DNA of 64,000 nucleotides from Trichosporon coremiiforme (lineage: Eukaryota > Basidiomycota > Tremellomycetes > Trichosporonales > Trichosporonaceae), in contig BCJJ01000004.1 in NCBI GenBank assembly GCA_039545355.1, positions 930,001-994,000 of the forward strand, given 5' to 3'. Below the pieces are notes generated by a model. That model made no database searches. It was not told the origin of the DNA and worked only from the letters and a program-made list of their open reading frames with translations. A program made the position numbers and the translations under genes. Each line of letters begins with the position of its first letter. Position 1 is the first letter of the stretch. This document shows positions 2,559-35,900 of the stretch, piece after piece.

Positions 2559-2983
2559 GAAATCGATAAGTTGAAAGAGGGGAGTGATCGACGGAGTCCG
2601 AGGCTTTATACTCTTGGGGATCTTGTTTCCGACGGAGACCGGGAAAAGGGCGGATGATTCATCTGCTTACGTTTCACTGGGAAGTCGATTTCAGCGAGGC
2701 CAGTCTTGCGTGCGTAGGCTGCTTCGGCGGACCCGACGCTGCTCTGCCACTCAGTGCTGCCCTGTATGCAAGCATAGCACGTCCGCCGTATGATAAGAAT
2801 GATAACCACGTTATGCAGCCGGTTCCACAGATTTCTCAGCTGGACTTTCTGATGGCTCTGCCTGGCTGACGGCTTGCCACCAGAACGCATCGACGGACTT
2901 GACCGGATGCTTCCGCTGGGTGGCCAACCGCATGAGCCACGATCGTCATCGTCATCTGTCCACTGACATCCCAGCGCACAAAC
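2559..2983. promoter_or_regulatory. Shared upstream region of two divergent dioxygenase genes
   Basis: This 425-bp spacer separates the start codons of the membrane-anchored DODA-type dioxygenase (minus) and the phytanoyl-CoA dioxygenase-like gene (plus). I see no convincing coding exon. A CACTGACATCCCAG string shortly before the plus-strand ATG resembles an intron 3' end, so a 5' UTR intron is possible. The head-to-head layout suggests, but does not prove, a bidirectional promoter. Confidence 0.45.
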
Positions 2984-4157
2984 ATGTCACTGACCCCCGA
3001 ACAGCTCGAGCAGTGGGAGCGCGATGGGTGAGTCACCAGCTCGGGCACGAGGGCGTTAGCTGACCTCAGTTACTTTGCGCTGCCCGACTTCCTTAGCCCA
3101 GAGGAGGTGCAGAAACTGCTTGGCCGAACACAAGAGCTCCTCGACGCTTTCGACCCAGAGTCACACCCGCTCACGGCGTTCAAGACGGGACGGCAAGATG
3201 GCGAGCACGTCGGGGACGACTACTTCCTGACCTCGGGCGATAAGGTGAGGGTCACCCGAGGACTACCTTCCTTCAACCTTCCGTCTTCCTCGACCGCCCT
3301 CAGCTGCGAGAGCCCGAAAGATTGAGCTGACATCAGATCCGCTACTTCCTCGAGCCCTCAGCCCTGTCCGAAGCGAAGGACAGAGAGCCGCCGAAACTCC
3401 TGTACCCTCCCGCACGTTCGATTAACAAGATCGGCCACGGTCTCCTCGCCGATCCCGTCTTCCGCGAAGTAACGACGAGCGATAAGGTGAAAGACGTCGC
3501 GAGGAGTCTGGGGCGAAACATTAAGGACCCGCGAGTGCTCCAGACCATGATCATCTGCAAGCAGCCCCGGATTGGAGGTGTAGGTAAGTGTCTCTGAACG
3601 GTCGCAGATCCGCTTCGGTAGTACGCACGATCAAGCTGACCCCAGTCCCCTGTCACAACGACTCGACGTTCCTCTACACCGACCCGCCGAGCGCGATAGG
3701 GTGCTGGATTGCGCTGGAAGACTGCACGCCAGAGAACGGCTGTCTCGTAAGTTAAGACGCCCCCTTCCATCCCAGCTGACATCAGTCCTTCCTCCCCGGA
3801 TCCCACAAGCAGGCGAAGGTGCACTCGCGCTTCGTGCGCTCTCCTAACGGAGGGACCGAGTTCGAGCCGGTCCCGGGCGTCGAGAAGGGAGAAGAGGATT
3901 GGGACAAGATGGACGGGTGGAAGGAGGTGCCCGTTAAGGCGGGCACGGCCGTGTTGATCCACGGTGAGTGCCAAGCTCACCATATGTTACCGAAGCTGAT
4001 GTTAGGCTCCGTCATGCACTGCTCCCCGCCAAACCCGAGCGAGAAGACACGCATGATCTACACGTTCCACATGATTGATGGCGCTGAGGGGGTCGAGTAT
4101 GACGAGAAGAACTGGCTGCAGCCGGGACCGGAGGGGTTCCATGCGCTGCTGGCGTGA
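2984..4157 (+). CDS. Phytanoyl-CoA dioxygenase family protein (PHYHD1-like)
   Basis: This is an Fe(II)/2-oxoglutarate-dependent oxygenase of about 310 residues. The N-terminus [17 protein letters not shown] is the usual family opening. The iron site is visible as His-x-Asp in [15 protein letters not shown] and the distal His in SVMHCSPPN, followed by the Arg of SEKTR expected to bind 2-oxoglutarate. SFLPGSHKQ is the conserved turn between them. At least five introns are needed and each restores frame (first donor inside the GAT-GG|GTGAGT codon, next exon TACTTTGCG). The stop at 4155 faces MET3 convergently. The natural substrate is unknown; homologues include phytanoyl-CoA hydroxylases and secondary-metabolism oxygenases. 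No peroxisomal PTS1 is evident, as the C-terminus ends HALLA. Confidence 0.88.
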
Positions 4158-4342
4158 TGCCATGAGATTTAACAGTGTAGCAGGGAGCTGAGGGGCGAAA
4201 GTTAGGTTTATCAAGCGGTCTAGAACTTCTGGGCAATCGCGCTCTTCGAGCGCCCAGCGCTGCAACATTGGTGTATGCCTACTACTATACATTATGCGTG
4301 TACGCGCAAAGTCTAAGAAATTCGGAACTAAACTAAGTGAAT

Positions 4343-6330
<1,988 letters not shown>

Positions 6331-22398: not shown

Positions 22399-25300
22399 AT
22401 GAAGTTTGGGAGGTGAGTGAGACTTGCAATCGAAGCACAGGGGACATCGCAGAAGTCACCGACTGTGCGCCGCGGACGTGTGCTGCGGTTCTGCGTGCCC
22501 AATATAGTTTCCACGCCCCAGGCCTCGACCACGACCACTCCTTGCACGCCGCCCTCCCTTCACATCACACTCCCGCGCCCAGCCCTCGCTGACCGCAGGT
22601 ATCTCGAGGAGAACGCGACGCCCGAGTGGAAACGGGCGTACATCGATTACCGCGGCGCAAAGAAGGACATCAAGCGTGCCGTCGCCTCGCGAGAAAACCA
22701 GGCCACTCAGGAAAACAATGACTTCTCGTCCGAGGAGGACGATGCCGACAATGGCCCCTCGGCCAAGCCCCGCAGCCCCAACTCGCCCTCGGCGCTGACA
22801 AGGATCATCTCTGGATCCCCCAGGACGCCCAACACGGCCAGGAGCGGCAAGACGCCCCGCACGGGGCCGAGCCCGCTGAGCCCAAGACCGAAACGATCGG
22901 TCGGCAAGTCGCCGGGGCAGAGTGGAACGAGAGTGAGTTCAGCCGACGGTCGAGGGCCGATCCAAGTGAAGGCACGTTCGTTCATCTGGAATGGAGGGTC
23001 TGGAATATCATCGACTCTCCGTCCCGGACTCCCGAGATCGACGAGACCGATCGTATGGACGAGATGGACATCACGCTGACCCACAGCCGAGCTCAGGCTA
23101 CGGTGCTACCGGCACGTCGCCGCCCCTGGACGACAACGGGGTGCAGTTCCCGCCGCCGCTCGACCTCGGCGAGCCCGGCATCCCCCCGTCGCCGGACCTC
23201 AAATCGGCGCAGCAGAGCGCGTTCCTCGAGCCCAGCGATCTGAACAAGGAGCGGCTGAAGGGGCGAGTCGACACGGCGCGGGGCGCCAGTGGTGCCACCA
23301 GCGGGGCGACGAGCGGTGCTGCTAGCGGGGCAACCAGCGGCACGGCGAGCGGAACCGCCAGCGCCGGCAAGTCCCCCGCCATGATGTCCGTCCCCGAGAC
23401 GCCGGCCGAGGGCGAGGAGCGCGGCACGTCTAGCGAGGGCGGCCCGTCTTCGCCTGACGCACCCGACACCCCTCTGACCCACAGCAGCCGGAAACACGGC
23501 CACACGAAGGGCTCGCCAAGCAAGTTCTCCTTCATTGCCAAGTCACCCAAGACGCATGCGTCCGTCGGCGTGTCGCAGGGCTCGACGGCCGATGCGCCGA
23601 GCGGAAAGAAGTCGCTCCGTAAGTCCCTCTTACTCTTCACGCAATGCCTAACCCGTTTTAGGCAACATGAAGCTCCCCTCGCCCAAGATCCAGCCCAAGC
23701 AGCCGCAATCGATGGACGAGCTGTACGCGACGCTGAACCCGGAGGAACGCGCCTTCTTCGACCACCTCGACAAGCAGCTGGACAAAGTGGAGACCTTCTA
23801 CAGCGCCCGAGAGCAGGAGGCGACGCGCCGCTTCTCGGAGCTTAAGGACCAGCTTAACGCGCTCGCGGAGCACAGGCGCATCTTCCACGAACAGTTCCCC
23901 GGCGGGCAGCACGAGTGGGAGTCCAAGGTCGGCCGCGTCACCAAGAACGCCCACGTGCCCATCCTCGCCAAGGCGGTCAAGCACCTGCACGGCCGCAATC
24001 CCTTCCACAACCATACCGACGACGAGAACGGGACAAATGGTGGAAATGGGAGCGGGGCTAGCAGCGCAAATGGAGCGAACGGTGCGGGCACGGCGCGCCG
24101 CAGGTCCCCCGCCGGCCCCGGTAGCAACGGCACGACGCCGAACGAGGGCACGGCGTACTCCACCGCCGTGAGCAGTGTGCGGCCCGAGAGCGGGAGCGGG
24201 AGCGATGCAGGCAGCAGCGGCGACAACGACCTTAGTGGTACGACTGCGGCGGGCTCGACGCGTGTGCTGCCGGGGAAGCCGAAACAGTTCGATCCCGAGC
24301 GCTACCAGAAGTACAAGAAGGAGCTGCGCACAGCCGTGGTGGAGTACTACCGTCAACTCGAGCTCATCAAGAACTACCGTATCCTGAACCTGACCGGGTT
24401 CCGGAAAGCACTGAAGAAGTTTGAGAAGGTCACGGGTATCCACTGCCTCGACCTGTACACTGACGAGCGGATCGCGCCGTGTTCCTTCAGCCGGGGGGAG
24501 CCAATCGACCAGCTCCTGAAACAGACCGAGGAGCTGTTCAGCGAACACTTTGAACATGGCGACTTCAAGAAGGCGCGCCAGAAGCTGCGCGGGCAGGACG
24601 CACACAGCACGCACTACCAGACGGTGTTCAGGAGCGGGACGTATATCGGCCTCGGGCTGCCGGCCGCCGTGCTCGCGATCGTGCAGAGCTTCCACCCCGA
24701 CGTGAGGCAGCAATTGCCACAGTGGGGAGCCCTGCTGTGCATGTACGGGGGGCTGTACCTGCCGGTCCTGTTCGGTATGCTGTTCGAGCTCAACCTCGAC
24801 GCCTGGGTCGAGGCGCGGATCAACTACGAGTTTGTGATGGAGCTGAACCGCCCGGTCCTCGACTATCGCAGCTATCTGGAAATCCCCGCGTTCATGTTCC
24901 TGACGCTGTCGTACTGCTTCTTCTTCAGCTTCTACTTCATCCACCTCCCGACCGTGGCACCGACGACATGGCCGCTCGCGTGGCTCGTGTTCGCGGTCGC
25001 CTTCTTCGTCAACCCGCTGCCGATCTGTCGCCGGCGCGCGCGCTACTGGCTCCTCCGCGTGCTCTTCCGCGTGATCACCCCAGGCATCTCGCGCGTGGAG
25101 TTCATAGCTTTCTTCATGGCCGACGAGCTCAACAGTCTGACCTACTCGATCCAGAACATCATGTTCATCGCGTGCTGTTTCGGCAAGCACTGGCCCGGCA
25201 ACGTGTCCGCCGTGTGTCCCATCGGCACGACGTGGCCTTATGCCCTGCTCGCGACGCTGGCGCCGCTGAGCCGATTGATCCAGTGTCTGAAGCGTTGGTA

Positions 25301-26241
25301 TGACTCGCGCCTGTGGATCCACCTCATCAACGCGGGCAAGTACTGCTCCACCATCATTGTCGCTTGGCTGTACATGAACTGGCGCGCTGGGGGGAGCGAC
25401 AAGTCCTCACCCGCTTTTGCGATGTGGATCCTCTTCGCGTGTCTCAACTCGATGTACACTAGTTCTTGGGATTTGGTCGTCGATTGGTCCCTCCTCCGAC
25501 CAGGCTTTAAAGGTCTCCGACCAGACCTCGCCTTCGGATGGCCAGGTTTCTACTACTTTGCCATGGTCACGAATGTCCTCATCCGGTTCATCTGGATCTG
25601 GTATATTCCCGAGATGAAGCGGCTGAGCAAGTTCCGCAGCTGGCTGTTTGCGCTGCTGGAGATGATGCGAAGGTGGCAGTGGAATTTCTGTAAGTTTGAT
25701 ATTGCCCTCACTTCCTCCCATATCTCTGTCTCTTCAGGCTTCGGGTACTGGCTTGGCTGTCTTGCTCGGCCAGCTTGGCCAGCATTCGAAGAGTGCCTGG
25801 GGCTTCAGGGTCCACGGGCTTAAATATTACATCCGCCACCACGTGTTTATCCCATCTTATCGGAACCTCCACCCGCTAACACCCCCACAGACCGTGTCGA
25901 GACCGAACACTTGTACGTATATTCTCTGCTTCTTCTTGGGGGTTCCAATTCTGACGTCTTCCAGGGGCAATGCCGATGCCTACCGAGTCACGAGGGAGAT
26001 CCCATTGCCGTACAGACGCACAGACCAGGACAGCGACGTCGAGGACGACTTCAAGCCCGCAAAGGACAGCAACCTCACGAAACTCCGCGCGCGCGTGCTT
26101 GGTCGTACGTCGACTGGACGTGGTGTCAATGCGCTCAACGTCGGCGCTAGGGGCCACGCGAGGCAGAGGGAGTATGAGGCTTCTAGGCCTGGCGATTTCC
26201 CCGCGCCTAGGGATAGCGAGGAGAGTGTGGAGAGTGTGTAG
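22399..26241 (+). CDS. SYG1: SPX-EXS phosphate transporter/exporter (SYG1/XPR1 family)
   Basis: An integral membrane protein of about 1,080 residues, expected to export or sense inorganic phosphate under inositol-pyrophosphate control. The SPX domain opens with MKFGRYLEENATPEWKRAY, where the first five residues are in a separate exon (intron 22413-22598). It continues after a long disordered Ser/Pro/Thr insert in LDKQLDKVETFYSARE and YRILNLTGFRKALKKFEK, which holds the Lys cluster that binds inositol polyphosphates in the family. Several hydrophobic segments and the EXS domain follow (MADELNSLTYSIQN, SSWDLVVDWSLL, FIWIWYIP). The last exons are recovered by splicing: WQWNF|YRVETEHL|GNADAYRVTREIPLPY, with introns of about 200 and 52 nt. 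A 12-bp coding repeat gives GATSG-type repeats near 23280-23360. Confidence 0.94.
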
Positions 26242-27152
26242 GCGGGCGAGCCGGCGCGACTCGGCGCGACTTGGCGCTGGGACTGGCTGCGAGACTGATG
26301 GAGGGTGGAGCGTTGAGGCTGTGCGGGGCGCGGGGAAGCGCGGGGGGAGAAGACTCCACGCATCGCGGCGTAGGTTCGTCCCGCGATACGTGTTGAGTCT
26401 TGAGGAGAGGTCCGAGTTAAGGACGATTAATGAACTTTCTGATCATGCCGTGAAACCAAGGTGTCGTGTTCTCTTCAGGTTTTGTTCCCTGTGCAAAGTG
26501 CCACATACAGTACAGTAAACCCCCCATTAGCATTTAGAATCCTTTCATTTTCCAAGTTTTAGAAATCAGCATCGATCCATTTTCCTATAGTCACATGCAT
26601 GAGCACATTACGAACTGGCTGGGGCTTGTGGGGGATGGTTTGGGAGGTGAGAGGAGGGGGGGGGGGGGGGGCAGCATACGGAGGGACAAGGGAGGGCGCG
26701 TGGGGTGGAGGATTGGCGGCGTCTACGTCAACTGTTCCTCACAGATTCTGAACATTCTCACATCTTGCCATCAGCATAGTCACCGTCATGCTCCGCCCAA
26801 GTCTGACTCTGGAACTGTCCCCGGCGTGAGTGGATCCGTGGCCGACCTTGCGAGATGGGGGGAAGGGGAGGCGGAACGCTTCAACTCCATTACTACCAGA
26901 TGACAACTGATCCCTCCCCGCTGCAAGTATGGCACCGGGCATCCCATCTTCTGGTCAACTCCTCAGTTGCACAGCGATTCACTCCACGTGCGCTTCCAAG
27001 TCACGCCGAGGGTCCGTCGCCTGAGCTACCTCCTTTGTCGTCGTTAAGCTGAACACCGGGCCGTATAGTGTTGGTCGTGAATACAGCGTCGGGGCCCTTC
27101 CATCCACCGAAACATCGATCACCGCACATCGACTTCATCCATAAACTTTGCA
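26242..27152. other. Spacer with a long G run
   Basis: About 0.9 kb between SYG1 and the intron-dense locus. It includes an uninterrupted run of 16 G at 26656-26671 and A/T-rich 3' flank of SYG1 around 26510-26560. I see no supported exon. If the downstream locus is a gene, its promoter and first exon should lie here. Confidence 0.4.
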
Positions 27153-27544
27153 GGTAAGCTGCGTCAACAACGGCATATGGAGCTGATTCCCAGCCCTCTT
27201 CAAGAAGGAAAGCGATGCCGAGATCGGCGAGTTGGTGTACACCAGTATTCTCCAACTGGTGCTCCCAGGTTCGCGGTCGTTCGCGGTCGCGCTCTTGCGA
27301 TGAGGGCGGGACAGAGGCATTGCTGTGAACCCTGTGACTCTAGCTGAGCCTCAGCTTGACGACGGTAGACTAAGGTGGAGGAGAAGGGGAAAGTCGAGGT
27401 GAGTTACAATGGCTGCGGAATCGGAGAGTAACTGACCCTACCAGTGCCCTCAGTTCTGAGCGCGATGCCCATGGTGGTGAGCTTACGCGTGGACGGCCGT
27501 AGCTGACCCACAGCTCGGTGCACTAGGAGTGGAAACTGAGGAGA

Positions 27545-27565
27545 GGGGGGGGGGGGGGGGGGGGG
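27545..27565 (+). repeat. Run of 21 G
   Basis: A pure G homopolymer inside a candidate exon of the intron-dense locus. Such a run would cause length instability in any reading frame and could form a G-quadruplex. Its length may also be an assembly or sequencing uncertainty. Confidence 0.9.
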
Positions 27566-29052
27566 TTCAGTTGCGTTTCACTTGCGGCAATATCTGCGAC
27601 GCAGTGGCTCCAAGTTATCTCAAGGAGAGGTATGAAGTAAGCTACCAGACACTTGAAGACCAGCTGATCCGCAGATCGCTCACACGGTACACGGTGGGTG
27701 TGAGGTGACGCAAGGTGAGCTACCATGGTGTTGAAACCGTAGCTGACTTGTGAAGACCTCCGACTCCACAACAGCCGGACCAAGCTTTCCGCGGCCAAGA
27801 ACAGTGGAAGATGGAAGTGAGCTTTGCTCATGCCTGAGACAGCTCTAGCTGACCTCCAGGTTGGTCCCGGTGGTGGCGAGTGTGGCGAGGGTCAATGTTG
27901 CGTGAGCCCGATATCATCTCCGTTGTAACTGACGTGTTCAGGGCGTAGGTATGCTGGTGGCTCATGCTTCACCCTCGTGTTTGTCAAGAGCACGGAGGTG
28001 TGGAGTGAGCTAAGTAGTTGACTTGGTCGTCTAGCTGACTCTCAGACCCCCTCGCCGTCGTATGCGTGGAGACTGGAGGGCACCGCGACGCGGAATCACG
28101 TTGGTGAGTGCAGATATTTCCATCCCTTGACCGACTTATCCAGTTGCATCTGTTGTCGACTCGCCTCGTCCTGGATCTCTCCAAGAAGACGGGGATAAGA
28201 AAGCTTAGGGGTTTATCGTGATGTCCAGCTAATCCACAGAGGTTGAATCTGGCAAGAGAGCATCAGTGAGTTTGCATGTCCCTAGAGAACTATCTTTCTA
28301 CAGCAGTGCGGCTTCATGGTGCGCACCGTCTCGACATCCAGGAGGGAAGGAGGTCGAGCAAGAGGTGAGCTCCCTGGTCGAGAAGGCCTCATAGCTGACT
28401 CCCAGATCTGCACTGTCCCGTTGATGTTCGGACCAGACGACGAGATACGCGGCCCGTCAGTTTTGTTCAAGCGCCCAAGGCTGTAGCTGACATGCAAGCA
28501 GACTCGCGACTCATGCTCGCGACCACTGGGGAGAACGAGGTAGGTAAAGCTAGATCGTCACGGCTATATTAGCTGAACAACAGGCCCGAACAGCGTCAAC
28601 GGCGTCAGTGTGGCGAAGAGAGCGTCAGTGAAGTTCACCTCTTTCCAGCAGTGGAGGTCTGGGCCGCGCTTTTTCCTAGACAGCTTAACCAGTTCCTAAA
28701 GAAGAGCAAGGGGTAAGCTTGTTTAACGGTGGTGTACGCTTTGGGTGTAGCTGACCAGAGCTATCTCTCCAGTCAACGTCGAGTGAGTAGAACAGAGAGC
28801 AGCTTGAGCTGAGGTGAGTTTCGATTGCTCTCAGGTACCCATTCACCTCCGCCATGCGGTATCATGACGCGTCTCGTTCTTGCTCTCTCAGGAGGAAATG
28901 AGGGCGGGGTAAGCTTGAAGCGTTTCATCGATCCCTACTCCCAGATTTTAAACAACCCCCCGACGTTCAGCACATGACGTGGATGAGAGTCAGTTCGCCG
29001 TACTCCGAAGACGAACAGACTTATCCGAGGTGCCGCCTCTCAAAGCAAGAAA

Positions 29053-29825
29053 GTAAGCTTGTCCAGGTAACTCCAGCTGAGTTTCAGCTTCAAACCTTCA
29101 TGTCGACGTCGAGTGTGACGATGAGGCAGAAGTAGGTGCTGAGTTCGCCGACCACTGCTACTGAAACTGACTTGCCCAGTGCTGCACCTGCATCAAAGCA
29201 GGAGGTAAGCTTCTCTCTCCTTTGGTCGCGTCAGCTGAGTCACAGCTTGACGACATCTTGACCTCACCGTGTGGGAGGCGCTGGAGGAGGTGAATGGTGA
29301 GTTGAACGCCACTTGTTATTGGAACTGATTATCGGCGACCGTTTCTTCAGGGTGGGGGGAAGGTAAGGTGGGGCGCGTCTGAAAGCACTAGCCGAGTCTC
29401 AGCTCTAGGACATCCTCTCCATGTCGAGTGTGGCGATGGCGGGCCATGTACACGGTGAGATGTCCGCCGTCGTGACTAAACTGACTTGCCGAGCCGTCTT
29501 TGCCTCCGAAAAGGAGGCAAGGCTCCGCACTCCTAGTCGTTCAGCTGAACCATAGCTTTACTATATCTCAATCTTGTTGACTATGTGGCGCTGGATGAGG
29601 TAGGCAGTGAGTTGAGCAGCACAGATCACCGGAGCTGACTGGTCCAGCAGATCCTACCTAAGGAGGTAAGCTGCCGCTGAGTTGTCCGGAAGCTCAGCGA
29701 CAGCTCTACAACTTCTCCTCGACGGCATATAGAGGAGATTCAGTGTCGAGCAAGACTGAGTTAAGAAGTAGGGAAGCTGGCTACAGGTCAGTTGGGGAAG
29801 CGCCGACACGAACTGACTTGCCCAG
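29053..29825 (+). repeat. Five degenerate tandem exon-intron units of about 155 bp
   Basis: Donors of one intron class (GTAAGC-like, after GGAG or GAAA) occur at 29053, 29204, 29363, 29517 and 29666, spaced 151, 159, 154 and 149 bp. The second intron class has donors at about 29132, 29297, 29455, 29607 and 29787. Each unit has the order: GTAAGC intron ending near CAGCTGAG-CACAG, an exon starting CTT or CTC with a GTCGAGTGTG-like core, a GTGAGT/GTAGGT intron ending in ACTGACTTGCCCAG-like sequence, then a short exon ending GGAG. The fourth copy has a GC donor (GGAG|GCAAGG). This shows tandem duplication of a unit with two introns, followed by decay. Confidence 0.7.
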
Positions 29826-29985
29826 TTCACATAGATACTGCGCGATGCGGCGCGACCCGATGGCCCACAAGATCATTGGCGTGAGGTATGCTGGTGCTCC
29901 TGATAAACTAGGGTCACAGGTTAAGTCGAACGAGTGGTGCCACAAACGAGGCCGTGAACTGTCGACCTCGCTGCAACCACGAATA

Positions 29986-31580
29986 ACTCATGCATATGCA
30001 TGTTTCTTGCTCTATAAACAGTTGTTCCACGTGCATGGGAGTCTTGGTAACCTATATACGAAGCATGGTGCACCTGGGATCAATACTTAATGTGTCCTCC
30101 ATTAGCAGAGATGGTGTCCTTGATCCTGTTAGGCATGGACATGATAAGTCGGTCGATCTCATTCTGATCATAGGTGTTCCAGAGCTCCGTAGCGGCAGCG
30201 AATAGCCCCTCCTGGGTGGTGGGACGAGGGTTGAGACGGGCCAGGCGGCGCTTGAGGTTGCTCCAAAGGTTCTCAATGGGGTTGAGGCAAGGAGAGCAGG
30301 GAGGGTGAGGCAGGAAGCGCATGCCAAGTTGCTCTGCCTTGCCACGGGTGGCCTTGGCTGTGTGGACGACAGCGTTGTCCTCTACAACCCAGGGCAAGCC
30401 ATAACCACGCCACTGAGTCTTGACACGCTTCCAGCAATCAAACAACTCCTTCTCAGTCACCTGGGTGCGATAGATGGCCGCATTGACTCCCTTGCGCTTG
30501 GAGGTCGACTGGGAGGTGTCAAACCACACCAGCTTCGACTTGCCGCCATACCAGATAGCCCCCCAGCACATAATCGACCCACAGCTCGATCTGGAGGTGT
30601 ACTGGATGTACCTGAGTGTCAGCACTCTTCCACAGCATGTAGAACGTCAGGAAAGACACTCACCGCTCATTGGCACGGTCAGAACCGATGGGGCGCGTCA
30701 CATATGCTCTGTGGAGCTGGTCAATGTAGAGAGGGACCTCGTCACAGAAGATCACCTTCCTCCACTCTTGGAAGAGTCGCTGCTGCTCAAGAGCATAAGC
30801 GAGACGCTTCTCCTTGTGAAGGGGGCTTAGATACGGCCGCACAAGAGCCACAAAGCGGCCATAACCAAGCTGGCGACGTGCACGGCGCAGAGTCATGAGA
30901 GAGAGGACAATGTCTCTGTCTGCAAGAGTGTCCAACACCTCACGATTGCTGGCGAAGGGCTGAGCCTCAAAGACCTCGTAGATCGCTCTGAGGTTGTCGG
31001 GAGTGAGCTTGGTGTGGCTGCGGGGGATGCGGATCCCCTGGACAGGGTTCAGAACAGCCAGAGCAGGTGGAATGAGAGCCTGGAGGCGAGCTAACATCAC
31101 ACAGTAACCCACAGTGCTCTTGGCGACGTTGTACTCCCAGGCGACAGAGGAATAGCTGCGGTAGCGAGCCAAGGACGCAATCTTGGCGCGGCGGCGAGGT
31201 GTGAGGCAAGGGCGAGGCATAGCTGCAAGTTCTGATGAGGTAGAGCTGTTGTGGAAGAGAAGTGGCACTCAAGGAGGCTTATATGCCACAAAGATGGACA
31301 GTCGGACGGACTCCGCTGCCGATATGCATGGTTTCGACTCAATTCTTGGATTTTCCAAAAGCCCAGCTTCGGAGCTTGATACATGAAAGATTTGGGGCAA
31401 GCACAGGCCTCGGTGGCTGAGATCTAGGGCGATAAGGAGGGTGGTGACATGCAGCTTTATTGTGGTGGTGTGGTGGCCAGTATGCACGGTGCGCTCTGCA
31501 GCTCCATTTGTCCGAGCTGCCAAGCATTCCTTTCGGCTCTACGCGGAGTTTCTAGGCATAAAGAGTACCGTTGCATGAGT
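29986..31580 (-). mobile_element. Tc1/mariner-type DNA transposon
   Basis: The element is bounded by ACTCATGCA at 29986-29994 and its inverted copy TGCATGAGT at 31572-31580. Each is flanked outside by TA (29984-29985 and 31581-31582), the standard target duplication of this superfamily. Similarity between the ends continues imperfectly inward for about 35 bp (CTATAAAC versus CTAGAAAC). A single transposase gene fills the middle on the minus strand. The length is about 1.6 kb. Intron-like sequence of the same type continues on both sides (29881-29919 and 31810-31847), so the element was inserted into the intron-dense locus. Confidence 0.85.
30080..31220 (-). CDS. Tc1/mariner (IS630 superfamily) DDE transposase
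   Basis: Cuts and pastes the surrounding element. The spliced protein is 362 residues, with one 52-nt intron (30612-30663) joined in frame as ANER|YIQYTS. The N-terminus MPRPCLTPRRRAKIASLARY has the helix-turn-helix type expected for binding the terminal repeats. The catalytic triad is visible: Asp in VIFCDEVPLYID, Asp in WVVEDNAVVHTAKA and Glu in CLNPIENLWSNLKRR, with 34 residues between the last two (DD34E). There is no internal stop and all catalytic residues are present, so it could be active. An in-frame upstream Met at 31268 would add 16 residues; the start at 31220 precedes the conserved region directly. Confidence 0.92.
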
Positions 31581-31809
31581 TATGGATCAGAACATGAGCC
31601 ACGGCGAGGTTGACGATGACGGGACCGTGCGCATCCGTTCGACTTAACCTGTGACCCTAGTTTACCCGCTTACCCACAGCTCTGCGGATGAAACCAGCTG
31701 CAGTAAGCGTGCTTCATCAGACGGGGCATGGTGATTTAGAAGGGATACCCCCAAACTGTCACGTTCTCTGTGTGTCTTGCAACCTTTCGTTTGAGGAAAC
31801 GAATAGGCG

Positions 31810-32022
31810 GTAAACTGGTGTTCCGGACGATGCAAGCTGACGTTCAGCAACTGAGAGTGGTTTTCTGTGGGTGTGGGTGCAAGACGGAGGAATGGTGAGT
31901 TGATGATAGGGCGACGATAGCTCACATGCCCAGTCATCAGCGAGTGTCCCTCTTCGTGTTCTCTCGTGCGCCAGACTGTGGTAAGCTTGGCAGCGAGATG
32001 AGATACCTCAGCTGATCTTCAG
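31810..32022 (+). pseudogene. Intron-saturated cryptic locus, right segment beyond the transposon
   Basis: Three further intron-like intervals resume right of the transposon: 31810-31847 (GTAAAC...GCTGACGTTCAG), 31895-31933 (GTGAGT...ATGCCCAG) and 31981-32022 (GTAAGCTTGG...GCTGATCTTCAG). Each is 38-42 nt with exons of 47 nt between them, matching the left segment in style, including the GTAAGCTT donor that recurs there. This supports one locus split by the insertion. The last visible 3' splice site is only about 115 bp from the 3' end of the AhpD-fold gene, which faces it. Confidence 0.45.
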
Positions 32023-32138
32023 TCACCGGGGGAGATCAGCAGAGTCAGTCAGATACATCTTCTATGAATAAGCAATGCTCTAGTGACGGTGGGTAGCGTA
32101 GGGCGACGCTGACAGCTCCTGAGACGAGGCACACGTAC

Positions 32139-32989
32139 TCAACTCCTCAGCACCGTATTGACAATGTCGTCCGCCGTCGCAAGAATCCACATACACCCCT
32201 CATCGCTCTGCAGCCACTTGCAGCCCTTCACCGTCCCGTCGTCCTTGGCCGCCTTCAGCCCATACACGTGGCTCGTGACCTGCAGTCCGACACCCGTGAC
32301 GGCTCTCAGCGCCGCAATAGCAATGACACTGGTGAGCACGCGTCCGAGACGGAACTGCCCCTCGGCTGCTGGCGGGTCGGTCAGGAGCGGCCCGTAGTGC
32401 GACCTGAGAATGTAGTCGGCCAGATCGGGGTGGAAGGCGGACAACTTCTCAATAAGCGTATCGGCGTGCACGCCGTAGATGTCCTTCCAGAGAGTGAGGC
32501 CGTCTTCCCTTGACAGCTCAGTGCGTGTCGGATCGGACTCGAGGCCGTCCTTCACAGCGTACGAGAGATGGTTGTACAGCGCGCCGAGGTTGTTGATCGA
32601 CTGTGGGTCAGCATACTCCAATTCTCCAGCTGTGAGGTCCACTTACTCTCGGAACGCCCCCGAAGGAGATACACTTCAGGCCCACTTCCCGGATCGCCTG
32701 GCGTCAGTACTTTCTCTACGACAGAGGAACTCACAGAGGCAACAAGTACCTGGTCCTTCACTGTCTCGCCCTTCGCAAACTCGTACAGGTGACACAGCGT
32801 CTCGCTCGAGTTGATCGTGAGCAGCACAGCGGCCGCGAGACAGAGCCACGTCTCCCGTCCGACGTGAGGGTTCGAGCTCAGCCTCGCGAACAGCGCTTCC
32901 GTCACCTCTGGCGAGGGGGCGGGGACGTCGCCTCCCTTTGCGGCTGGGTCGGCGATCAGCGCCTTGAGTTCCGGGCTCAGCTTGGACAT
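32139..32989 (-). CDS. AhpD-like fold protein (carboxymuconolactone decarboxylase superfamily), uncharacterised
   Basis: A 255-residue protein in three exons with introns of 37 nt (32698-32734) and 46 nt (32601-32646). The segment SAIREVGLKCISFGGVPRS followed by INNLGALYNHL resembles the core helices of fungal AhpD-like proteins, and SHVYGLKAAKD near the C-terminus fits the second helical part. Only one Cys is present in the core (KCISFGG). The CxxC peroxidatic pair of true AhpD is missing, so alkyl-hydroperoxidase activity is doubtful. There is no clear targeting signal. The family assignment is by motif resemblance and is moderate; the gene model is solid because all three exons join in one frame. 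Confidence 0.7.
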
Positions 32990-35900
32990 GGGTGGTACTG
33001 TGGGTGGGGGTCGTGTGAGCGAGGCGAGTGTTGTAAGTGTTGTGAGCGTTGTGAGTATGCGCGTGAGTTATATGGAGGTTGCATCTTGATTGTTGAGGAA
33101 TGGGGAGATGACGTCTGGGGAACGGAGGATTAAACTTAGCCGACCGTTATCAGCTCCCCACACATCGTCCGTGCCTGAGACGAGATTGATCAGCACACGA
33201 CCACGGAATGTTGTCGTCGTGCTGGAACTGATGCTGCACCTTCATGCTTACAACAGTAAGGATTTGAGAGTGGAACTGGAGTGAGAGGTGACGTGCGAGC
33301 TGCATCAGTGTCCCCAGCGAACATGCAGAGTGGAGGTTGGGGAGATCCGCAAGCGATTACACCCCAGTGGCGTGGCTCGTCCAACCGCGTATCGCACTGA
33401 TAGCCGATTATCAGCTGCTGGGGCCGTGATGACCTCCACAACCTCCTTTGGGCCATCCTGGACAGTACGAACTATGGGGATGAGCTGAGAGCTTTGCTGG
33501 GGACCTAGGGCCGGCTTCTGACGTGCACGTGCATCGCACTCCAACAGTTGTCGCAACTGGCGCTGACGGCGCTTGCAGACATCTCGCACCTTCTGCGACT
33601 GACATCTTAGGCTGTCTCCCGAGCAACTCCGAAGCTCACTGCAAAAGGTGCTAGGTGCTCGCTGTTATGCTGTAGTCGCCAGAGACAGGCGGTTGACGAA
33701 TGGCGTTGAACACTTGGAATTGCGCTTCGACGAACATAGTCCTTCAAGCGCGGAACTGCAAGGCTGGTGAAGATGTGCTGACAAAGTGGGGCCCACGCTC
33801 TCTAAATGCCTTGTACAAGGTATTGACCACAGTCTCGTGTGCGTGGTTCACGCAGCCACTACCCACCCGCGCCAACTGCTATAGGCATCCGCTCAGCCAT
33901 GACCTCGCATCTCGATGGTCTGGCCTGCGATCGCCAAGCTGTCCATTAACGTTCGGGCGACTGCTCGTCGGGCCCGAAACATCGGTGCAAGTTTTGACTG
34001 GCTGTTAGGTTGCGGGGCGAGATCACTCCGACGGCCCAGCATTCAGTGACCTGCAGATCACTGGCACAACTGTCTTTGACTCTGGTAGGCCGAACGGCTA
34101 CTCGAGCGCCTAGAACATGGTGCAGGAGGCGTCCCATTCCATTGTTACGCCGAGTGCCGAGGCGCCACCGACGCGCCAGGCGACGGACATGACTGGACGA
34201 CGGATCGCCCGGTCCTGCTCATCACGCTTTGGCTACGTGGGCTTACTCGGCCAGTCCTGCGGGCCTGCGCCTCCTCGCGTGCTCGGCGATGCGTCGGCGC
34301 CGCGGCAGTGATGAATCGGGGGAGCCGTTCCTGCAGGTTGCATCGCGCAGGAGCCTCGTATCTGATAATCCTTAGTGCCCAGCATCAGCGACTGCATGGT
34401 CGATCTCCGGCGGACCTGAGCATGAACAGTGTAGAAATTGAGCTTGCTCAAGAGTTCCGGCACTGCGCTTGAGAGCCCATGCAGTTCTCGAGCCGGGCTA
34501 CTGTCGGCCACAGAAGGGTTCATGTTTATCAGGTCCAGTTTAGTCTCTGCTGGATTCTGCGCTTGCGCTGATCGCTGGCAGCACCGGCTGTGCGGATTTG
34601 CGTGCGGTCGTTAAGTTACAGGGCTGTACGTCACTGAGCTCGTCGTACTCTGCAACAAGCTCTGGCAGGCTGGTCAGTAGGCTTAAGCTCGCGCCGAGGT
34701 GTGCCCGAGCGTTATTCGGCCGGCAAGGCTATTCAGCGGCAGACTGAAAAAGCGACGAAGACCTGCGACAAAGAGCGCTGGACGACGGATACTGCGCAGA
34801 ATTACTACGTCGTTGCACCTGCTCCGTCTCCGGTGGACAGTACAAGTGCACCGCTGAGTCATCCGGCTCGGTCTGGAGGAGCTGGAAATGGCCGGGAAGT
34901 AGAACCGACTGGGGTGAGTGAAGGCTCGTTAAATGCCTCAGACTGCTAAGGGATGGGTTGTGTGTCATATTGTGGCGCTGCTGTTCCCTCCAGGGAGAGG
35001 TTTGTGTCCGCCAGGAGGCCAGGAGGGCACTGAGAAGCGAGCGTCGCGAGCGAGGACATGTCTTGTGACTTGCAGCCTGCAGGACGAAGGGACGGAAGAA
35101 AACGTCAGTCTCTTGGCAGGAAAAGGGGGTTGACAGTCGCGTTCCTAATCAGGGATAGCTGCCCCAGCTCTCACCACTAGTTCATCCACTTCTTCCATAA
35201 ACATGCTGCTCGAGCACAGGAGCGAGAGAAGCACTCGGTGCATGGGACGTCTCGCAGACGGAGCAGACCGAACATACCAAGCTGCGCTCAAACTCGGCGC
35301 TGGGTTCCGACAAACTCAGAACCTCGCATCCGAGTAATAAACAAGGAACGGGTAAAGCACGGCCAGGAGGCAGGGGGTCCTGCGCTGGAAACGACGTTGG
35401 AACCGACCCGTCCCCGCAGAGGATGCAGAGGAACGGGCAGCCATCGCGTCGCGTTCTACCGAGCAATGTGCGAGTTCTCATGCAAGACGGCTGGCCGGCT
35501 TATCAGATGCAACGTGACAGTGCCTTTGTGCGGGTGTGTCACGCCGCGTCGGTCGCGTCGTGTTTACTTCTTCAGCCTTCCTGACCCAGACATCCATTCA
35601 GTTGTGTGAGATCTCGGCGCTGCTTGAATCTTGCAACTTCGAAATGGCTACACCTATGCAGAACTCGTGATGCTGACACGTTCGAGAGTTATTCTTGGGG
35701 TTCTTCAGAGTATTTCGCTTCAGTTGAGAGAATCAGCGCCGTCCGCGCCGCCCGGAATGAAGAAATAGAGGCGCAACCTTGAGCCCATGCTTCCGAGAGG
35801 AGCATCCGAGGCTGGAGCAGATCCCAGCACGTCCAGCGTCCTGACTCCCAGCTCGCCAGTAGGAGAGACAGGGGAGGTGATCGATGTCTCGTGGCGTTTT

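Follow-up and report, generated by a model that had tools for sequence, protein, structure and literature searches.

An intron-saturated, apparently non-coding locus with a homeologous counterpart in Trichosporon coremiiforme

Cryptococcus is a fungal group related to Trichosporon coremiiforme, the organism of the present analysis. In C. neoformans, according to the published annotation, 1,197 miscellaneous RNAs (miscRNAs) hold 1,434 introns; 765 of these RNAs are spliced, with about two introns per spliced RNA (PMC3990503). The locus described here lies on contig C4 (BCJJ01000004.1) of T. coremiiforme, within a stretch of 64,000 nucleotides (positions 930001-994000, the window), and consists of an array of short predicted introns. 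Like the miscRNAs, it appears to be non-coding and spliced and has a possible AUGHAH polyadenylation (poly(A)) motif. It differs from them in carrying about 20 introns, in having a homeologous counterpart and in its drifting exons. A second report on C. neoformans states that most genes tested accumulate far less RNA once their introns are removed and that the effect of intron number is cumulative (PMC3744415). A cumulative gain of RNA from introns could supply a mechanism for the present locus, but the effect is experimental there and is deduced here for a transcript without detectable coding sequence.

Two further systems invite comparison. The zipper stems described for Saccharomyces cerevisiae bring the 5' splice site and the branch region together from a distance (PMC12350175). 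The intron-internal pairing discussed below links the same two regions; in T. coremiiforme, however, it is the donor and branch motifs that contain the complementary bases. Introner-like elements are alike in sequence. The locus resembles the fungal ones (PMC4457414) in packing many introns into a small space, whereas its introns share little beyond the splice signals. A literature search over titles and the openings of abstracts returned no description of intron-saturated non-coding loci or of donor–branch covariation in the Trichosporonales, which is not proof of their absence.

The locus is, on balance, best read as a plus-strand gene (~27.1-32.07 kb of the window) whose product, a long non-coding RNA saturated with about 20 introns of 35-55 nt, would be kept for being spliced. 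The intron excess on which this reading builds was measured with a position-weight score model whose training set was 54 introns predicted in other parts of the window. The model was run on 27050-32130 without an inserted transposon (3,322 bases), counting non-overlapping introns at cut-offs of 12, 16 and 20 bits. The plus strand yields 27, 21 and 13 introns, the minus strand 9, 3 and 0, while 60 dinucleotide shuffles give means of 6.0, 1.6 and 0.4 and maxima of 10, 5 and 2. A separate and stricter pattern, applied to 27100-29960, yields 11 matches on the plus strand and one on the minus strand, against a shuffle mean of 0.85 (300 shuffles, maximum 5). At 12 bits, the median length is 41 nt for introns and 59.5 nt for exons. 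As a statistical object, the introns of the array are confirmed to be real. A first-pass annotation of the sequence had proposed about 27 plus-strand introns; the lowest cut-off returns this number, yet the minus-strand and shuffle counts lead one to expect that only about 20 are real and that some of the 27 arose by chance. The same annotation held that regular signals on one strand exceed chance, and that splice motifs match those of other genes. Among 2,102 overlapping window-strands of 1.5 kb (264 kb of C4), the locus ranks top, with 13 introns. A possible GC-AG intron at 29517-29555, seen by eye, stands outside the count.

The assembly analysed comprises 42,036,993 bases in 134 contigs. 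The gene upstream of the array, which encodes SPX and EXS domains, has a second copy on contig C2 with 82% identity by DNA comparison, and the window is collinear with the C2 stretch compared from 23.7 to 44.0 kb. The second copy and the collinearity imply two diverged subgenomes, at least here. On C2, an interval of 2.0 kb (h 2620-4640, where h p = C2:1094001-p) separates the homeologs of both flanking genes. It holds a like intron array at the homeologous place and on the same strand: 11 plus-strand introns at 12 bits (2.7 in shuffles) and 8 at 20 bits (0.2 in shuffles). On the minus strand, 12 bits yields 3 introns in the 2.1 kb scanned and 2 in 1.54 kb.

DNA comparison at E 1e-3 between the flanking genes aligns a single block, where the upstream gene probably has its 3' end. 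A sensitive alignment adds three introns: one near the array start (27399 / h 3857; 75% identity over 56 columns, E 7e-5) and, at the array end, the pairs 31895 / h 4191 and 31981 / h 4275. In these alignable parts, with gapped columns left out (0 for signals, 16 for exons and 9 for interiors), identity amounts to 46/51 (90%) in splice signals, 62/95 (65%) in exons and 42/69 (61%) in intron interiors. The neighbouring genes, summed over three gene stretches with 8 predicted introns, show 112/133 (84%) in signals, 6481/7764 (83%) in exons and other sequence, a class that includes some non-coding bases, and 136/245 (56%) in intron interiors. The alignable exons of the array thus appear to evolve like intron interiors, with splice signals kept at least as well as in the neighbours. 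This combination of drifting exons and kept splice signals is the main evidence that selection sees splicing. For the intron at 31895, the score model had placed the acceptor at 31940; the homeolog alignment places the end at 31933.

No stop-to-stop frame of at least 150 amino acids exists on either strand of 26518-30080, in agreement with the earlier remark that a long contiguous open frame is missing. Coding capacity across introns was assessed with a frame test, which scores the best path through candidate introns (intron score plus stop-free codons) against 40 within-exon base shuffles. Its controls were five intron-rich loci of C4, taken as protein genes from their frames; these beat the shuffles, which reach the best frame in 0, 2, 0, 0 and 0 of 40 cases. 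The focal array has no such excess (216 codons against 300 +- 96 in shuffles, reached in 32/40), nor has its homeolog (238 codons against 206 +- 63, reached in 13/40). No Pfam family reached the cut-off in six translations, which covered both homeologous arrays in three forward frames, the sole match below it being bPH_2 at E 0.059. One open peptide per homeologous array found no protein relative at E 0.001 among 342 and 11 scored candidates. Rfam gave no match up to E = 1 for either homeolog, and DNA comparison found no further copies of the focal array. The locus is therefore probably not a protein gene, and the spliced non-coding RNA, one of four options that the first-pass annotation had offered, gains from these results as well as from the drifting exons, the kept signals and the homeologous array.

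The first-pass annotation had also recognised that a transposon splits the locus. The element is of the Tc1/mariner type, with perfect 29-nt inverted repeats (29904-29932 / 31636-31664), a TA target site and a DDE transposase in two exons on the minus strand (Pfam DDE_3, 1e-11; HTH_Tnp_Tc3_2, 1.4e-8). Joining the flanks at a single TA restores a 35-nt intron. The family has at least 40 full-length genomic copies including this one, all 100% identical after rounding (40 scored of 132 candidates). The near identity of the copies makes this a very young insertion, and the array was unbroken until recently. Elsewhere, at C24:644963-648139 on the minus strand, two intron-pair matches (a search pattern described below) stand on either side of another full-length copy of this transposon (C24:645674-647432), as at the focal locus, and this site is perhaps another array struck by it. 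A further copy, C12:1185961-1187719, ends about 275 bases ahead of the array stretch on contig C12.

We infer that the array is transcribed and spliced, and that selection acts on the act of splicing and not on exon sequence. In line with the cumulative gain in RNA reported for Cryptococcus introns, each intron would help the transcript to escape nuclear decay or silencing, and a transcript without an open frame would keep being made only if heavily spliced. Production of the RNA might separate the two convergent genes or act on neighbours. The number of introns could change via tandem duplication of exon–intron units, an easy way to gain introns. The recent mariner insertion in one intron interrupts the array of this homeolog.

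Several observations weigh against a non-coding locus kept for splicing. Its intron density per 1.5 kb barely exceeds that of the densest presumed protein gene and is only modestly exceptional: a locus at C4:805k reaches 11 introns and yet passes the frame test. The class identities rest on three alignable introns and their flanks, most of the array being unalignable, and these few positions come from its slowest-changing part. The predicted splice path of the homeolog contains one open run of 143 codons. A related array on contig C12 has an open run of 196 codons, and in its frame test the shuffles reach the codons in 7/40 and the score in 4/40. With one choice of splice sites, the exon lengths of four tandem units in the focal array sum to multiples of three, a weak hint of past coding. 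One rival reading is a protein gene in which introns are extremely dense and the protein evolves very fast, overlooked through errors in splice prediction. In its favour, parts of the sequence read well in a single frame (VDVECDDEAE and LTVWEALEEV are examples), the unit exon lengths can sum to multiples of three as stated, and C. neoformans is reported to have one gene with 42 introns (PMC3990503). Such a gene is nevertheless unlikely, since frames are no better than shuffled ones in either homeolog while presumed protein genes pass, alignable exons are kept no better than intron interiors, and the searches returned no Pfam domain at cut-off and no protein relative. The orthologous exon at 31934-31980 also differs by one base in length (47 nt against 46 in the homeolog). 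A leucine-rich-repeat reading of the tandem units, made by eye, was rejected: on visual inspection no frame is open in all units, and no Pfam match reaches the cut-off in any forward frame of the two arrays. A gene that decayed recently enough for its introns to still look intact is quite improbable. It would explain traces of reading frame with stops, and the fresh transposon insertion could be taken as a sign of it. Most homeolog exons, however, are unalignable, while the splice signals score well and the frame is equally closed; the preservation of splice signals in both homeologs fits badly with fresh decay, and the transposon is too young to have started so deep a decay.

The position of the array, on the same strand as the SPX-EXS gene and about 0.9 kb past its stop, would also suit a spliced 3' untranslated extension of that gene instead of an independent one, and a gene of the same orientation likewise precedes the array on contig C22. 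This is improbable, because gene and array are separated in both homeologs by a conserved block that carries a poly(A)-like motif. The upstream gene probably ends in this block, in which case the array would begin as a separate unit. An expansion of introner-like elements into a non-coding stretch, the remaining option of the first-pass annotation, is very unlikely. Many introns have like ends, and donor and branch motifs form near inverted repeats; the end motifs are nevertheless those of ordinary introns. Intron interiors in the C12 array are slightly alike (mean pair score -7.11 against -7.39 +- 0.13 shuffled; best pair 7.0 against <=6.5), and those of the C22 array exceed shuffled likeness by two standard deviations. 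In the focal array, however, they are not clearly alike (-5.17 against -5.42 +- 0.18, or 1.4 standard deviations), nor are they in the homeolog, and where sequence repeats, at 29.1-29.7 kb, entire exon–intron units have been duplicated in tandem. In the alignment of these units, columns of splice signals are identical in 136/198 pairs and other columns in 370/701. Fungi are known to have spliced non-coding host genes (PMC3596301). That this locus hosts small nucleolar RNAs (snoRNAs) or other known small RNAs is hardly to be expected, given that Rfam has no match up to E = 1 in either homeolog. Known snoRNAs are also too long to fit into introns of 35-55 nt.

The features of the locus and its surroundings are listed in the following table.

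Table. Predicted features of the intron array and its flanks (window coordinates; intron scores in bits).
Feature	Position	Strand	Basis and remarks
SPX + EXS gene upstream of the array, 3' part	23652..26241	+	Pfam EXS 1.7e-85, SPX 6.6e-40
Block conserved in the homeolog	26559..26611	+	84% identity, 55 columns; contains ATGCAT at 26595
Whole array: intron-saturated, apparently non-coding transcription unit	27050..32070	+	Intron excess; limits inferred; first intron 27154, last 32022
Intron 1, predicted, GTAAGCT..AGCTGAT..CAG	27154..27193	+	22.6
Intron, GTGAGTTAC..GTAACTGAC..CAG	27399..27444	+	27.4; orthologue = intron at h 3857, C2 homeolog
Intron	27477..27513	+	27.6
Intron	27637..27674	+	22.3
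Intron	27715..27755	+	17.8
Intron	27817..27859	+	25.2
Intron	27902..27941	+	23.3
Intron	28005..28045	+	23.1
Intron	28104..28143	+	15.8
Intron	28266..28303	+	15.1
Intron	28365..28405	+	24.4
Intron	28456..28501	+	21.8; earlier AG acceptor possible
Intron	28540..28583	+	18.7
Intron	28713..28758	+	25.6; acceptor 28758 or 28772 (longer form by strict pattern)
Intron	29053..29087	+	17.4
Four diverged tandem units, 148-158 bp, each exon-intron-exon-intron	29088..29703	+	Repeat families D1, D2; self-comparison; alignment
Intron	29132..29179	+	17.3
Intron	29205..29245	+	18.0
Intron	29607..29650	+	23.9; acceptor 29647 or 29650
Intron, GTCAGTT..AACTGAC	29787..29825	+	18.6; donor/branch motif = perfect 7-base inverted repeat
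35-nt intron split by transposon at TA	29886..31679	+	15.7 after joining flanks
Tc1/mariner-type DNA transposon, one TA copy included	29906..31664	-	Inverted repeats, Pfam, copies
Intron	31895..31933	+	Orthologue h 4191-4228; acceptor TGCCCAG common to both (alignment)
Last predicted intron	31981..32022	+	25.7; orthologue = intron starting h 4275
ATGAAT, matches AUGHAH poly(A)-site motif of Cryptococcus (PMC3990503)	32064..32069	+	Chance matches common
Convergent gene downstream of the array	32139..33000	-	Limits approximate; homeolog 79% identical over 32138-33457

The upstream gene is presumably SYG1/XPR1-like. The frame scanned for the downstream convergent gene (32139-32639) contains no Pfam domain. 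The ATGAAT motif lies 42 nt from the last intron, and 38 nt from it in the homeolog. Long poly-G runs occur near 26658, just before the array, and near 27545, inside it. With its two subgenomes, the genome looks like that of a hybrid yeast; for three species of the Trichosporonales known as hybrids, sizes of 40.8, 42.35 and 40.3 Mb have been reported (PMC8550739; also PMC6730849).

Comparable arrays exist elsewhere in the genome. A pattern of two introns around a short exon has 19 matches genome-wide and none in a backward control, and it led to the arrays on C22 and C12. For the C22 array (C22:526.7-528.3k, contig minus strand), the 12-bit count is 23 introns, compared with 6 on the opposite strand and 2.8 in shuffles, and four consecutive exons measure 17 nt each; its frame test shows no excess, as shuffles reach the best frame in 38/40. 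The C12 array (C12:1188-1191k; 1187995-1191061, plus strand) holds 31 introns at 12 bits (12 on the other strand, 5.2 in shuffles), and a second genomic copy of it was not found. Both reach 16 introns per 1.5 kb, above the 13 of the focal locus. The flanks of the C22 array recur on contig C8, upstream at 1091531-1092304 (83%) and downstream at 1095665-1096096 (79%). The interval between them does not align with the array apart from 104 nt. It contains a match to another intron-pair pattern on the expected strand (C8:1093076-1093138), and it appears to be equally as diverged as the focal homeologous interval. The focal and C22 arrays share their setting: each follows a gene of its own orientation and, as far as frames tell, precedes a convergent gene. 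Intron-pair matches also cluster at a dozen other places. Clusters of at least three matches were noted at C9:1021346-1021649 (plus), C12:422.6-426.4k (minus), C12:443.3-444.9k (plus) and C9:940.1-940.6k (minus); those on C9 and C12 are candidates for arrays or very intron-rich genes.

Early ideas of donor–branch complementarity exist. In 305 predicted ordinary introns of C4:730001-994000, the focal locus excluded, donor position +6 and the base that immediately precedes the branch motif CTNAY covary. With T at +7 and A at -2, the combinations C/G, C/A, T/G and T/A occur 52, 3, 23 and 38 times (odds ratio 28.6, p 2.7e-11). Outside this context, which concerns few introns, there is no association (16/0/64/5, p 0.58; 8/2/12/6, p 0.67). 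The same covariation recurs in the four arrays (26, 0, 7 and 16; p 7e-8). The pattern is as in a 4-bp helix that would join donor positions +4 to +7 (AGYU) with the branch sequence ARCU, with G-U allowed and C-A avoided. The score model treats positions as independent and should therefore not create it. All four pairs can form in 100/305 ordinary predicted introns. Mean predicted pairing probability is 0.34 in the focal array, 0.47 in the homeolog (8 introns), 0.45 in C22 (16 introns), 0.29 in C12 and 0.30 in ordinary introns. Stronger pairing was considered as a mark of arrays and rejected, the two higher means resting on 8 and 16 introns; the helix is therefore taken to be a trait of the introns of the species.

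In the C22 array, the donors of the first eleven introns switch strictly between two flavours, GTT and GCT. Among neighbouring donors that could be classed, alternation is seen in 9/15 cases in the focal array, 5/6 in the homeolog, 13/17 in C22 and 0/7 in C12; shuffles of their order reach the observed alternation in 387, 381, 58 and 2000 of 2000 trials, respectively. Genome-wide, neighbours across short exons number 63 A-A, 19 A-B, 12 B-A and 1 B-B, without a clear excess of alternation. Strict alternation as a general rule was rejected on these counts and the order shuffles, which leave it at best a feature of C22.

A bolder and doubtful proposal is that this genome has a class of splicing genes: loci that are syntenic, non-coding and saturated with introns and that conserve only their splice signals, with splicing itself or the tiny lariats as their function. 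Their introns, like a third of ordinary ones, can form the donor–branch helix in two flavours (AGUU/AACU and AGCU/AGCU), whose strict alternation in the first eleven C22 introns could prevent wrong joining.

If transcribed, the array would be a natural case of selection preserving splicing without preserving the spliced product. It would allow one to ask whether introns license the existence of an RNA in intron-dependent fungi, and how the spliceosome handles exons of ~17-60 nt between introns of ~40 nt. The pairs of homeologous intervals in one cell offer built-in comparisons. Should RNA-supported introns bear out the donor–branch covariation seen in ordinary predicted introns, this would speak for an intron-internal helix located at the splice signals themselves.

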